From Thermanaerosceptrum fracticalcis (GTDB lineage Bacteria > Bacillota > Peptococcia > DRI-13), in assembly GCF_000746025.2 (NCBI RefSeq), contig NZ_CP045798.1:792501-856500 (forward strand): a DNA stretch of 64,000 nt. The letters run 5' to 3'. Positions 33,579-64,000 of the stretch are shown here, one piece after another (the first letter of the stretch is position 1; each line of letters starts with the position of its first letter). The notes under the pieces are model-generated. The model was not told the DNA's origin, made no database searches, and saw only the letters and a list, made by a program, of their open reading frames with translations. A program made the position numbers and the translations under genes.

Positions 33579-33604
33579 TGAGGGTCTTTTAGCCCCTCAC
33601 TTTT
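33579..33604 (+). terminator. Terminator after bioA
   Basis: TGAGGG (33579-33584) with CCCTCA (33594-33599), then CTTTTGC. Moderate. Confidence 0.55.
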
Positions 33605-33619
33605 GCTTCTTTACTCAAT

Positions 33620-33934
33620 AGCTGGGAGGAGCTCTACCTGGAGAATGCTGAGGGTCTCAGTGCTTCTGCTATCGATAACTACCTGGAGCGGGCTGGATTA
33701 GCACCTTCGGAAATTAATGCTCTCATTTTTGTATCTTCCATGGGAATTGCCACACCCGCCATCGATGCGCACCTCTTTAACGTGATGGGGTTGAGGCCGG
33801 ATATCAAGCGTTTACCTCTTTGGGGGCTGGGATGTGCCGGTGATGCAGCCGGTTTGGCCAGGGCTTTTGATTTAGCGAGAACTGGTTTAACGTTAATAAT
33901 AACCCAGACCTTTGACTTCCAGCTCTTTAAATAA
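33620..33934 (+). pseudogene. Fragment of a type III polyketide synthase (chalcone synthase family)
   Basis: About 105 in-frame residues starting SWEELYLENAEGL resemble the middle of bacterial type III polyketide synthases: FVSSMGIATPAIDAHL, the LRPDIKRLPLWGLGCAGDAAGLARA segment with the active-site Cys. The normal enzyme has about 350 residues; both the N-terminus and the C-terminal half (with the catalytic His and Asn) are missing, and there is no start with a ribosome site. Clearly a remnant. Confidence 0.8.
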
Positions 33935-57868: not shown

Positions 57869-58237
57869 TTAAGGAATTACCCCAAGAAAGACACCTAACC
57901 AAATGACAAAGAAAAAAACAAGCAAAAGAGTACGGTGAAGCAAGCGGGGGTTTTTGGAAAACAGCCTGGGTAAACTTAAAATGAAACTTAAACCCGCCAT
58001 TAAAACCAGGGCCGGGTAATTTTCCGTGAACAGTGAAACAAGGGATAAAAAAGCCAAAAATAAGACAGTAAAATAAAACAAGTAGTTTTTCTTCTTCTCT
58101 CTTTTTGTGCGTCTGCTGGGTAAACTCACATAATCCCCCTCCTCATCCCTAGTATTACACAACAAACCAGGTAATAAATCATCGGGAGGTATAGTGAGAA
58201 AGATATTATAAGCTTTCTGCAGCCAACTTGATGTCAC
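57869..58237 (-). CDS. Small membrane protein of unknown function
   Basis: 122 residues: charged N-terminal half, two to three membrane segments at about 55-70, 74-90 and 101-121. It overlaps the spoVK end by 32 bases if ATG 58237 is the start; a later start is possible. Coupled to spoVK. No family recognised. Confidence 0.55.
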   Translation of the reverse strand: MTSSWLQKAYNIFLTIPPDDLLPGLLCNTRDEEGDYVSLPSRRTKREKKKNYLFYFTVLFLAFLSLVSLFTENYPALVLMAGLSFILSLPRLFSKNPRLLHRTLLLVFFFVIWLGVFLGVIP

Positions 58238-59186
58238 TGGCGATGATGAAAATTAACTCTTCCCTGGAGAGGCTGCTTTCCCCCACTAAACGAACAGCCT
58301 GCTGGCGCAGGGCTTTTTCTATAAAATTCCGGACCAGGCGCGCATTGCCGCTGTGTTCATGGGATTTGGCCAATTTTTCGGTCAGTAATCGCTCCAGCTC
58401 GTTTTTCCCGTCTTCACTGAGTTTATACTGTCTTTTTGTTAACATTTGCTCAGCAATGGCCAGGAGTTCCCGGATGTTATAATCAGGAAAATCAATATGG
58501 ATGGGAAAACGGGACCTTAGCCCGGGGTTAGTTTCCAAAAACCAGTTCATTTCCTGCTTGTAGCCGGCCAGGATGAGAATGAGATTGTCTTTATTGTCCT
58601 CCATGGTCTTCACCATAGTGTCGATGGCTTCTTTGCCAAAATCCTTTTCTCCTCCGCGGGCCAGTGAGTATGCCTCGTCAATGAAGAGGATACCGCCCAG
58701 GGCCCTTTTAAGCTGTTCCCGCGTTTTTAAAGCAGTATGTCCAATATATTCTCCCACCAGGTCCGCCCGTTCCACTTCGATAACGTGTCCTTTCTGCAAG
58801 ATACCCATTTCTTTAAAAAGGCGCCCCACGATTCTGGCCACCGTTGTTTTACCTGTTCCGGGATTGCCGCGAAAAATCATATGGAGAACCAGGGGTTCAG
58901 TGATTAAATTTTCTTTCGCTCTTCTTTTTTGAATTTCCACAAAAGCCTGTATTTCCATGATCAACTTTTTAACAGAATCAAGGCCTACCAGAGAATCCAG
59001 TTCCTGCAAAATCCCTTCTACTCTTTTACGCCTTGTCAGTTCAACTTCACTGACGGGGGGTGTTTTTTCCAATTGTTTGAACATATTAAGATTGGAAAGC
59101 TTCACCGTGGCCTTGGCAGGTTTTGTAACAATTAGTTCGGGGGGTTCGTTTTTCTTTTGGGGATGAAAAGATAATTTCATGGCCAA
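58206..59186 (-). CDS. spoVK: Stage V sporulation protein K, AAA ATPase
   Basis: 326 residues. After an N-terminal 85-residue part comes a CbxX/CfqX-type AAA domain: Walker A GNPGTGKTTVARIVG, Walker [24 protein letters not shown], sensor-1 LILILAGYKQEM and the Arg-finger LRSRFPIHIDFPDY. Required for spore maturation in Bacillus. Normal family length. A partial second copy lies at 60493-60757. Confidence 0.95.
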   Translation of the reverse strand: MAMKLSFHPQKKNEPPELIVTKPAKATVKLSNLNMFKQLEKTPPVSEVELTRRKRVEGILQELDSLVGLDSVKKLIMEIQAFVEIQKRRAKENLITEPLVLHMIFRGNPGTGKTTVARIVGRLFKEMGILQKGHVIEVERADLVGEYIGHTALKTREQLKRALGGILFIDEAYSLARGGEKDFGKEAIDTMVKTMEDNKDNLILILAGYKQEMNWFLETNPGLRSRFPIHIDFPDYNIRELLAIAEQMLTKRQYKLSEDGKNELERLLTEKLAKSHEHSGNARLVRNFIEKALRQQAVRLVGESSLSREELIFIIASDIKLAAESL

Positions 59187-59692
59187 AAACTATCACCTCC
59201 ATGCTGCGAAATCTATTACAAATTATGCATTTTCGGCGGAATGGTGCCTGGAATAGTGGAGCGTGCCCACCTCTAAGTAAAAAGTCCCCGGAATGGGGAC
59301 TTTCGTGTTAGGCTGGTAGTGCCCACATCACTGGCACTCTGGGTCGTATTAATCTCCCGCCGGTAAACCTGGTGCACATGTTCCATGATGCACTCCTCCA
59401 TGGCTAGCCATTCTCTCCGGTTATTCCGGTTTTGAATAAATAAAATTTTAGTGATAATCCGGAAGAAGTCGTAACGCGAAGGGAACCCAAGATTTCAGCT
59501 TTCGAATTTTTAGGGACTTTTAAATAGAGCTTAACGCTCTTCCATCATAGATATAACGTTGCTTTAGCTCCTTGATCATTCCAATGACATGAAATCCTTT
59601 ATTCATCAAAATCTGAAGAAGTGGAGAATGGGTAAACCAACTATACCCCAATGTCCTTTTACAGTGAAAAGCTTACTCTCTGTAATCTTAGA
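59187..59692. other. Gene-poor interval
   Basis: No supported gene. A hairpin with a 9-bp stem is at 59281-59303. On the minus strand an open stretch of about 70 codons (59277-59493) has no start or ribosome site and no recognised family; it may be another remnant. Confidence 0.4.
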
Positions 59693-60492: not shown

Positions 60493-60757
60493 GTCTTGAC
60501 CATGGTATCGATTGCTTCTTTGCCGAAATCCTTTTCTCCTCCACGAGCCAAGGAGTATGTTTCGTCAATAAAAAGGACACCGCCCAGGGCCCTTTTAAGC
60601 TGTTCCCGCGTTTTTAAAGCAGTATGTCCAATATATTCTCCCACCAGGTCCGCCCCCGTTCCACCTCGATAACGTGTTCTTTCTGCAAGATACCCATTTC
60701 TTTAAAAAGGCGCCCCACGATTCTGGCCACCGTTGTTTTACCTGTTCCGGGATTGCC
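60493..60757 (-). pseudogene. Partial second copy of spoVK
   Basis: 265 bases match 58606-58868 inside the AAA domain (Walker A to Walker B). About 14 mismatches cluster in the part nearest Walker B and beyond; the Walker A side is almost identical. A two-base insertion (five C instead of three) shifts the frame. Both flanks of the parent gene are missing. Confidence 0.88.
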
Positions 60758-60797
60758 TTTGTGTATACAAGGGAAAACATTCTGAATATATCTAAAT

Positions 60798-60837
60798 GTG
60801 ACGGTCTCCCCGGACTTCATTCCGCCGAGACCGTTAC
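60798..60837. repeat. 11-bp hairpin beyond the polymerase remnant
   Basis: GTGACGGTCTC (60798-60808) pairs with GAGACCGTTAC (60827-60837), one G-T; possible terminator of the minus-strand remnant. Confidence 0.55.
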
Positions 60838-60870
60838 ATACATTATTTACCAGGAAATATTTTTGATCTT

Positions 60871-61530
60871 CTATAGTATACTTGACATCATACTTGACAT
60901 CATCGGATACTCTTCTTCTCCTACTCCCCCGTTAAGAGCTGGAATCCTAGAGTGGGTAAATATGGCCCTGGTGATGGCTCGGGGTCCATATTTCGACCTA
61001 ATATAATCCACAGCTTTGTCCAGTGCCCGCATTTTTACCGGGTCTTTATGTGAAAAGAGAGACAACTGCACAAAATTACAAGGTGTTAGGTCAGAGACAC
61101 GAACTCCTAAATGCCGTAGGGGTTCTCCTTTCCACATTTCTTTGAATAACTGTTTTGTTATACAGTAAATCTCATCTGTGGAGTCTGTTGGTGAATTAAG
61201 TTTGCACTGGTGCGAATAATATCTAAAATTGTTATTTTTGAGCCCTACCGAGACCAGGCTGCAGCAGAAACCAGCCTCCCTCAGACGTGTTGCAACAGTT
61301 TCAGTAAGGGACAAAAGATACATATTGGCCGTCTGTATATCCTCAACGTCAAAGGGAGTTGTAGTTGAATTGCCTATCCCCTTGATGCCTATATGAGCAC
61401 TACGTACTATTGAGTTTTCTATCCCATTAGCATACTGCCAGATCAACACTCCATGACTTTTAAGCCTCATTTCCAGACTTTTTACATCATATCTGGCTAA
61501 GTCGCCAATAGTCCTTATACCTAACAGGAG
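60871..61530 (-). pseudogene. C-terminal part of a Y-family DNA polymerase (Pol IV/UvrX type)
   Basis: 220 open codons start with a thumb helix-hairpin-helix (GIRTIGDLARYDVKSLEMRL) and continue with the little-finger domain and a C-terminal SKYGPRAITRAIF-type segment. The palm with the catalytic Asp/Glu residues, about 200 residues, is absent and a stop lies directly upstream at 61531. The 3' end has two copies of ATGATGTCAAGT. A translesion polymerase remnant; internal ATG 61470 has no ribosome site. Confidence 0.75.
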
Positions 61531-61634: not shown

Positions 61635-62471
61635 TTATTCTGAAACCTTATATCCGGTTTCTGCAAAAAATTGCTCTAATTTCTGTTTAGTTTCCTCATC
61701 TATAGGTTCATCAACAACTATTTTGATTTCCCTCCTGTCTTTGAATAAACTAGGATTTTTCTTAACTGGTATAATGCTTCTAACTTTTTGAAATAGTGCG
61801 GATGCGTTAGGTTCCAAGTAAATACTGATAGCATATCCGGTTTCCTCTTCCAGCTTGCTTAGCACCTGTTTATATGGCTCAGCTGCCTGGGGTGTGATAA
61901 ATTGAACCCTTATGGAGCCCTCCACTAATGAGGTTTTATATATTTCTGCCCCTTCAGCCTTAAGCCTGTTCTTGATATGGTTAAACGCTGCATTAATCTC
62001 CATTTTGCCGCCGATTGTTTTTGGAATTTCCATTACAGTAGGTTGGGTTTCTGTTTGCACCTCAAGTTTCCATCCTGTCACCTTATTAAAGTCCAGCATT
62101 ATTCTTTGCCACTGGTGTTGATCTGGATTACTCGCTGACATTACTTTTATTTTTACTTTATTTTCTTCCCGGTAAATTGATGGTTCTTTAACAAGCGAAA
62201 CTCCCTCTGGCAGTAATTCTGCCAATTTCAATTTCAGCGCCTCCATGTTAGTTTCCTGATTAATCCGCCAGGTCCAACCGGTTTGCTTTAGCAAGTCAAG
62301 CAGCATGCTGTTTATTTCTTCCGGCAAGGCTTGCGGAAAGTAAAAATAAATTATCACTTCACCGGTCTCAGTATTCATCCCCACTTTATTCAAATCATAG
62401 TTTTTCAGGGCAGCAATAAATATTTCCCGTGCCTGATTCTGTTCCAAACACGAAAACCGTGGCTTTGCCAA
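61635..62471 (-). CDS. Protein of about four repeated alpha/beta modules, partner of the beta-CASP nuclease
   Basis: 278 residues without membrane segments. Four segments end alike: LLKQTGWTWRI (about 70), FNKVTGWKLEV (about 135), LEEETGYAISI (about 220) and FFAETGYKV (end). Each is preceded by a basic/strand part such as NKVKIKV, GSIRVQF or REIKIVV. This suggests about four KH- or ferredoxin-like modules. No named family known to me. Only 5 bases separate it from the nuclease gene, so RNA binding is a fair guess. Confidence 0.65.
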   Translation of the reverse strand: MAKPRFSCLEQNQAREIFIAALKNYDLNKVGMNTETGEVIIYFYFPQALPEEINSMLLDLLKQTGWTWRINQETNMEALKLKLAELLPEGVSLVKEPSIYREENKVKIKVMSASNPDQHQWQRIMLDFNKVTGWKLEVQTETQPTVMEIPKTIGGKMEINAAFNHIKNRLKAEGAEIYKTSLVEGSIRVQFITPQAAEPYKQVLSKLEEETGYAISIYLEPNASALFQKVRSIIPVKKNPSLFKDRREIKIVVDEPIDEETKQKLEQFFAETGYKVSE

Positions 62472-62476
62472 GCCTG

Positions 62477-64000
62477 TCAGCTGTCTCCATGATCAAACAC
62501 CTTAATTCGCAAGTCTTGCACAGAGGATTCCTCCTGGTTAAATAATAATTCTAACCAGTTATTATTGACATTTTCTGGCTGACTTTGTGACAAGGTCCCG
62601 CAGATACCAATAATGTCTTCCGCTTTTATATATACCTGTTCAGCCTGGCCAGGTATTTCAACATTGATCCCATAGTCATCCTGAGAGATGCAATAGGCCA
62701 AACATGGATTATTTCGATAGGTAACTGCAATTAACTTGTTTACCAAATTACCCAAATTATTCATTAGTTCTTTTCTTTTGCCTTGTAAAGCTATTTCCTC
62801 TTCAGACAAGGGAACCCAAATATTCTGATAAATTTCCTTAAACAAGCTGCTCTGTTTAAGTCTTGTCTGCAGCGAACCGGTATCACAACCTATTTTAGCT
62901 GCCATTTCATCCAAGTGATACTCTTTGATACCGCTGGAAAGTAAGGTGTTTTTCCAAAAGGCTGCCAGATCCCCTTCAGCAGCTGCTTTAGCGGTATTCT
63001 GCCTTCTCGTGTACTGACCAAATGTAAAATCCAACACCTCTCCATTATTTGGCAGGTAAACTGCCAAACGGTTTCTTAGGGCTGCTGCCAAAGCTTCCCT
63101 GGCCTCTGCCTGGCCATGGGTTAAGATGACTCTCTTCGGTTTGAGGGCTGTTAAAAACCCAAATATTTCTTGCTGATCGGCATGAGCAGAAAGATTATAC
63201 TTTTCTACTCTACATTTGACAGTTATCTCCTGCCCGTTTAGCAAAATTTTTTTCTCATCAGCCGGCTTGTCCAATAATTCTATCAATCTTCTCCCAGGAC
63301 TTTCTTCATCCTGATAGCCAGTTAATAAAATGGCATTCTTTTCACAGCTTAAGAGTTTTTCAGCATAATAGGCGCTGGCTCCGCCAGTTAACATCCCTGA
63401 ACTGCTAATAAAACATGCGGGTTTTCCTGCCAAGGCTGCTTCTCGTTCATTTTTGACCGGGTTACCGATAGCCCTGACCGAGTCACTGTAAAATGGATGC
63501 TGCCCATTGTGAACCCTTTTTTGCAAGAATTTTGACAATTGGTTAATATGATTTAAATATACTGTATTTATACTTCTAACTAACCCATCAACCCATATTG
63601 GAAATTTTTCATTGTCCTTTTGTCTCAAACGGGCTAAACGAAGCAAATATAATATTTCTTGTGCCCGACCTTGTGCAAAAGCAGGAACCAGAACATGTCC
63701 ACCATCTCGGATCACTTGAAAAATTTTAGTAACCAAATTGTTTTCTTCACGTTTACGATCCGCATGATGGCGGTCACCATAGGTAGCCTCGGTAATGACA
63801 AGATGGGGAGAAAATTTAGGTAATGCCGCCGGCATTATTGTTCTGGTCCCAGATACAGAAAAATCTCCTGTGAAAAGAACTCTTCCTACTGAGGTTTCCA
63901 AACCGATCATGGCAGCTCCTAGGATATGTCCTGCCTGAAAAAAATGCGCCTTTGTTCCGTCGGGCAACAACACAAAACTTCCCATGGGTACGGGCCGTAA
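62477..64000 (-). CDS. Beta-CASP metallo-beta-lactamase RNA nuclease, 5' end outside the window
   Basis: At least 507 residues; the frame is open to the window edge and the N-terminal HxHxDH zinc motif must lie beyond it. Visible: QAGHILGAAMIGLE, FTGDFS, the beta-CASP segment EATYGDRHH, VLVPAFAQGRAQEIL, SSGMLTGG, then motif B His in LSAHADQQE and motif C His in LTHGQAEA. The family (YSH1/CPSF73-like) cuts RNA. After about residue 300 there is an extra C-terminal domain of about 200 residues that I do not recognise. Confidence 0.88.
   Translation of the reverse strand, partial: LRPVPMGSFVLLPDGTKAHFFQAGHILGAAMIGLETSVGRVLFTGDFSVSGTRTIMPAALPKFSPHLVITEATYGDRHHADRKREENNLVTKIFQVIRDGGHVLVPAFAQGRAQEILYLLRLARLRQKDNEKFPIWVDGLVRSINTVYLNHINQLSKFLQKRVHNGQHPFYSDSVRAIGNPVKNEREAALAGKPACFISSSGMLTGGASAYYAEKLLSCEKNAILLTGYQDEESPGRRLIELLDKPADEKKILLNGQEITVKCRVEKYNLSAHADQQEIFGFLTALKPKRVILTHGQAEAREALAAALRNRLAVYLPNNGEVLDFTFGQYTRRQNTAKAAAEGDLAAFWKNTLLSSGIKEYHLDEMAAKIGCDTGSLQTRLKQSSLFKEIYQNIWVPLSEEEIALQGKRKELMNNLGNLVNKLIAVTYRNNPCLAYCISQDDYGINVEIPGQAEQVYIKAEDIIGICGTLSQSQPENVNNNWLELLFNQEESSVQDLRIKVFDHGDS

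Follow-up and report, generated by a model that had tools for sequence, protein, structure and literature searches.

A CPSF/aCPSF1-class nuclease with multiplied KH-like domains at its C-terminus, frameshifted in the Thermanaerosceptrum fracticalcis assembly

Introduction

In eukaryotes and archaea, transcript 3' ends are produced by nucleases of the CPSF73 type, whose cut sites are determined in part by their KH or C-terminal regions. In the archaeal aCPSF1/FttA proteins (TIGR03675; MTH1203, PH1404, Tko FttA), a core of metallo-β-lactamase (MBL), β-CASP and RMMBL domains with all catalytic motifs is combined in the same chain with two tandem type-II KH domains, located at the N-terminus. The distal subunit of the FttA pre-termination complex contacts U-rich RNA, bases included, through both KH1 and KH2 (PMC11616081), and in Methanococcus the KH pair is required for U-tract binding and termination (PMC8716108). 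CPSF73, YSH1 and IntS11 present a homologous nuclease core followed by a C-terminal region. The same core is found in Thermus TTHA0252 and other bacterial β-CASP RNases of the class, TTHA0252 being a protein of 431 residues without added domains, and in Cas14 of the type VII CRISPR system a homologous core is followed by an added C-terminal anchor region.

Here, we describe a family of Bacillota proteins in which a nuclease of the CPSF/aCPSF1 class carries multiplied KH-like domains at its C-terminus. The nuclease class itself is known, whereas this combination is new; no publication on the family was found in the open-access literature, which omits most subscription journals. The family shares with aCPSF1/FttA the complete core with all catalytic motifs and the presence of tandem type-II-KH-like units in the same chain, and KHb of aCPSF1 is the best profile match to these units. 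In contrast to FttA, they are C-terminal and number four to six, all of them lack GXXG, a winged-helix-like insert is present, and the core belongs to another, bacterial branch of the tree. N-terminal KH domains are absent from the family, whose proteins begin directly at the MBL domain, and five members score 289-355 bits with TIGR03675, below its curated cut-off of 580. A C-terminal region following the core is also a feature of CPSF73, YSH1 and IntS11, but that of the family is a KH-like array, and no sequence relation to their dimerisation domains was detected. Unlike Cas14, the family shows no recurrent neighbour across clades that would suggest a CRISPR context, scores below the Cas14 family cut-off and has a tail that is unrelated as far as tested.

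One gene read as two

The window, that is, the whole stretch of 64,000 nucleotides analysed here, corresponds to positions 792501-856500 of Thermanaerosceptrum fracticalcis NZ_CP045798.1 (GCF_000746025.2), a genome (G000) consisting of one contig of 3.8 Mb. An earlier note on this DNA had described a nuclease gene followed 5 bases later by a second gene, and both ORFs are indeed present on the minus strand: the nuclease ORF has its stop at 62477 and is open to the window edge at 64000, and a 278-residue ORF runs from a TTG at 62471 to 61635, 5 bases downstream of that stop. The search of the whole genome places the start of the nuclease frame about 378 bases outside the window (G000:C1:856878). 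Part of the MBL domain lies beyond the window edge; it is intact in the genome, including the HSHFDH motif. Beside the gene, the region 60617-61530 (minus strand) holds gene remnants: an AAA ATPase fragment resembling the intact one at 58209-59189, and 219 residues from the C-terminus of a Y-family polymerase (IMS_C, 1.1e-29), whose catalytic part is missing. Elsewhere in the window, at 33593-33931, a frame of 113 residues resembles by eye part of a thiolase-fold protein (chalcone synthase/FabH type) and is apparently truncated. The features of the gene, all on the minus strand, are as follows.

62477..64000, minus: nuclease portion of the interrupted gene, covering residues 127-633 of the complete frame (ORF and genome context)
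63284..63664, minus: Beta-CASP domain, Pfam PF10996 (E 1.9e-22)
63074..63226, minus: RMMBL domain, PF07521 (E 6.6e-14), holding motifs B (H399) and C (H421) in the numbering of relative L014, invariant in 27 relatives
62480..62977, minus: middle region, linking the nuclease core to the modules, with a winged-helix-like start (PF25255 sub-threshold in a relative)
62477..62494, minus: frameshift site, GATTCATGGAGACAG in relatives and GATCATGGAGACAGCTGA in the window, the absent T lying next to 62492 (junction alignment)
61635..62471, minus: repeat portion of the same gene, 278 residues if begun at the TTG at 62471, frame open from 62492 (ORF and relatives)
62247..62447, minus: module A1, residues 9-75, predicted KH-like alpha-beta-beta-alpha-beta, ends in TGW (profile and model)
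62052..62249, minus: module B1, residues 75-140, predicted KH-like, ends in TGW (profile and model)
61806..62006, minus: module A2, residues 156-222, predicted KH-like, ends in TGY (profile and model)
61638..61808, minus: module B2, residues 222-278, predicted KH-like, with a conserved KNPS motif, ends in TGY (profile and model)

In comparison with the relatives, one T is absent from the window at about 62491-62493, where they have GATTCATGG and the window has GATCATGG. The junction is GTG TTT GAT TCA TGG AGA CAG CTG ACA GGC in the relatives and GTG TTT GAT CAT GGA GAC AGC TGA in the window, and every close relative reads without interruption across it (...KVFDSWRQLTGLAKPRFSCLEQ...). The absence of the T creates a premature TGA at 62479-62477, so that the chain appears as a nuclease of 633 residues and a repeat protein of 278 residues. 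By our count, full-length frames of about 820-1200 residues encoding a single chain are present in 51 genomes or MAGs of Bacillota, with the domain order metallo-β-lactamase, β-CASP, RMMBL, winged-helix-like linker and repeat modules. The fused frame is found in a genome of the same genus (G001, 97% identical), in G154, G129 and G003, and in two MAG contigs (L004 and L005), but also in members with just 24-32% identity. An example of an intact homologue is the protein of 820 residues at L018:3233-5692. The two neighbouring ORFs are one gene, broken by one lost base, and the seeming operon of the window is a frameshifted gene.

The two-gene reading was rejected because the relatives carry a single fused chain. 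Nor is there support for the two-part RNA-cleavage complex suggested in the earlier note: its two parts form a single polypeptide in the 51 relatives and come apart in the window through a 1-base frameshift. A programmed -1 frameshift was likewise rejected, as the relatives do without a shift and the frames of the nuclease and repeat parts overlap by only about 16 bases (TCATGGAGACAGCTGA), an overlap without a slippery heptamer (-1), which makes programmed frameshifting unlikely.

The break goes back either to the deletion of one base in the recent past or to a base overlooked by the sequencing. We give even odds to a fault of assembly or base calling, in which case the strain itself would make the fused protein unbroken. 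The single base was lost in a TT pair, the close relatives are intact, and no relaxed constraint is seen: silent and amino-acid changes on the window lineage stand at 7:2 and 5:1 in the two gene parts, which, small as these counts are, suggests that the break is very recent, a sequencing error, or harmless. Nevertheless, most of the neighbouring genes in the window are intact frames, and a real recent mutation would look identical.

The nuclease core

The Pfam domains Lactamase_B, Beta-Casp and RMMBL are all present in the family. Compared with PDB sequences, the core matches IntS11 (1.5e-54), PH1404 aCPSF1 (1.4e-53), TTHA0252 (1.6e-52), CPSF73 (1.6e-50), Cas14 (2.5e-50) and YSH1 (2.5e-46), whereas RNase J is a much more distant match, at 3e-9 or weaker; with the RNase J model TIGR00649 the core reaches 39-67 bits, below the curated cut-off of 400. 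MBL motifs 1-4 (D, HxHxDH, H, D) and β-CASP motifs A-C (E, H, H) show no variation among the 26-27 aligned members, and the same is true of a GYQDEE segment and the (S/A)PGR after it. Judging from these motifs and matches, the core is most likely a zinc-type MBL/β-CASP endoribonuclease of the CPSF73/IntS11/aCPSF1 class; the previous description of a YSH1/CPSF73-like nuclease had the class right according to the PDB sequence comparison.

In the core tree, the family branches with bacterial sequences from Herpetosiphon, cyanobacteria, Deinococcus, Klebsiella and Priestia, apart from archaeal aCPSF1 and from the second enzyme of the T. fracticalcis genome itself (L067), the separation of the archaeal copies having a support of 100/99. 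Several long branches make the order of branching among the bacterial sequences uncertain. Most of these bacterial sequences have DEESPG (DAESPG in Deinococcus) where the archaeal copies and L067 have QAxGTLG, and this segment of the β-CASP region is a mark of most of the branch. In different phyla, various unrelated added regions occur on the same β-CASP branch, as in the Herpetosiphon plasmid pHAU02 (L150:2348-4840), Crinalium (L180) and Nostoc (L176). Related β-CASP nucleases with a different N-terminal extension are encoded on the Priestia megaterium plasmid pNCT2_2 (L151:1964-6233) and the Klebsiella grimontii plasmid pNY3A (L178:460-4317). In both cases the next gene encodes a hypothetical protein that matches no Pfam family, and in Priestia an Hsp70-family gene comes after it; this set looks like a mobile operon.

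Between the core and the modules, the middle region varies from about 100 to 290 residues across relatives. Its match to PF25255 (wH_RNase_II) is sub-threshold only (E 4e-4, in relative L047).

The repeat modules

The earlier observation of about four similar modules with TGW or TGY ends is borne out, with repeats above chance. In the 278-residue part, the modules end in TGW (64-66), TGW (132-134), TGY (211-213) and TGY (272-274) and form two tandem A+B pairs: one half matches the other with an hhalign E of 6.1e-30 (probability 99.8%), a one-module shift gives 2.5e-9, and module A against module B gives 3.2e-8. Apparently three A+B pairs, and thus six KH-like modules, are present in the Bacilli-like G456 (L122:4817-7852), an assessment based on visual inspection and a second profile match. 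Searches of Pfam, NCBIfam and PDB sequences with the modules yielded no match above cut-off, and none of the Pfam KH models reached its cut-off.

For the profile comparisons, the aCPSF1 KH set comprised seven proteins from haloarchaeal plasmids (L143-L149; plasmid copies only), of which L143 matches Pfam KH_TffA at 1.2e-22. The KHa-KHb pair matched the A-B pair with an E of 1e-6 over 104 co-linear columns. KHb matched module A at 2.4e-7 and module B at 8e-6, and KHa alone did not match the modules (E 0.026), so the KH signal comes mainly from KHb. As controls, the best of 300 column shuffles gave 3e-3 and the reversed alignment 0.66. Among the other KH sets, S3 matched the modules at 5.4e-5 and NusA at 4.8e-4, and the Era set gave no match. 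S3 against aCPSF1 KHb gave 1.3e-5, so the modules differ from these domains no more than type-II KH domains differ among themselves.

In the AlphaFold2 model of the 278-residue part with three relatives, each module is predicted as alpha-beta-beta-alpha-beta. The repeats noticed earlier in this protein reappear as KH-like units in the prediction, whose mean pLDDT is 62 and which is confident in the second half only (pLDDT 70-87); a full-length model from three sequences reached a pLDDT of 40. Residues 155-278 fit best on KHa-KHb of MTH1203 (2ycb residues 2-133; Foldseek, VIA-align), with 121 aligned residues and a Z of 8.8, where values below about 9 may reflect a common arrangement. The two-domain superposition on 2ycb has an rmsd of 9.5 Å and is good for single modules only, which we read as possibly differing angles between the units. 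Single modules superpose on the KH domain of ribosomal protein uS3 at 1.9 Å; the NusA KH domain also fits, and LarE fits one unit equally well. Where S3 and NusA have the GXXG helix pair, the modules have one continuous helix. The viral-structure library gave no match at E 0.001 or better. Together, the profile comparison and the partly confident model indicate that the modules are type-II-KH-like units without GXXG, closest among the tested sets to KH2 (KHb) of aCPSF1/FttA and then to S3. The hint of KH domains in the earlier note therefore agrees with these results, and a fold is now likely for a region without Pfam annotation.

At the KH position, GXXG is absent from all aligned modules, occurring elsewhere by chance, and KHa of MTH1203 also lacks it (PMC3095777). 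The modules are acidic, with a pI of 4.8-6.6. Both features argue against RNA docking and make protein docking a serious rival, in which the array would be an oligomerisation or docking tail anchoring the nuclease to a partner, comparable to the C-terminal domains of CPSF73/IntS11 or Cas14, and not an RNA binder. Indeed, Cas14 is anchored through its C-terminal domain (PMC11786720), CPSF73 and INTS11 have C-terminal dimerisation sequences (PMC11616081), and among the Foldseek matches to the modules are several KH-like scaffold domains that form rings in secretion systems. However, the nearest KH domains by sequence are RNA-contacting, and no neighbouring gene is conserved across clades as a candidate partner, synteny being seen only inside one genus. 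We consider such a protein-docking tail a real possibility, at somewhat more than one chance in three.

Distribution and broken copies

The gene is patchy, being present in 26 of 398 sampled genomes of the phylum. The module region has no plasmid match, phage matches concern the nuclease core only (23-30% identity), and PADLOC gave no match for the family. Several copies are broken. In G333, a complete genome whose sibling G240 has the gene intact, one base was deleted independently at the very same interdomain junction, so that stop and start overlap as TGATG. G592 has a frameshift near the β-CASP/RMMBL border, G521 has a copy with an in-frame stop, and G596 and G310 retain deletion remnants. 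In addition, a broken partial second copy (L015:6457-7263) lies beside the intact one in G129, and L132 and L133 are decayed copies, so the gene seems to be often lost.

A true two-gene, two-subunit system, derived from gene fission and producing the repeat protein by translational coupling, could account for the independent break of G333 and for the predominance of silent changes in both parts. Nevertheless, 51 relatives carry the fused gene, the repeat protein would have to begin at a TTG that has no ribosome-binding site at a suitable distance, and the low change counts are also compatible with a sequencing error or a mutation of very recent date; moreover, the copies broken or decayed elsewhere (G592, G521, G596 and G310) indicate that breakage is not special to this junction. 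Fission is thus unlikely, at roughly one chance in eight.

A tail related to the N-terminal region of PolC, tethering the enzyme to the replication machinery, is very improbable: a weak Pfam PF14480 match (E 0.01) and a co-linear alignment of 118 columns point to it, but the hhalign probability is 15% with an E of 1.7e-3, about the level of the best shuffle, and the KH sets score far better, so PolC was rejected as a relative of the modules. An effector of a type VII CRISPR system has next to no likelihood, as the matches of the core to the NCBIfam Cas14 model NF045584 (210-323 bits) fall short of the curated cut-off of 800 and stop at the core end, the aCPSF1 score is equal or better, and the comparison across clades revealed no recurrent neighbour fit for cas5 or cas7.

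Proposed function

Our preferred interpretation, which we hold to be probable at about two chances in three, is that the window carries one frameshifted gene whose intact form encodes an endoribonuclease with a C-terminal array of four to six KH-like units binding RNA or an RNA-bound partner. The array would hold the RNA strand, or the partner bound to it, and could present the strand to the active site in a manner comparable to the distal-subunit KH pair in archaeal FttA; the MBL/β-CASP core would then cut the held RNA. That the substrate is RNA is suggested by the nuclease family, and its docking by the tail is likewise our inference. A more specific proposal, an FttA-like factor of Bacillota in which the C-terminal array of a CPSF-type endoribonuclease recognises nascent RNA and the enzyme cuts during transcription, is a long shot, at around one chance in ten.

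Under that last proposal, the same kinds of parts as in archaeal FttA would have been joined in the opposite order. With four to six KH-like units at the other end of the chain, this bacterial branch offers a natural way to test which part of the CPSF73-type design matters.
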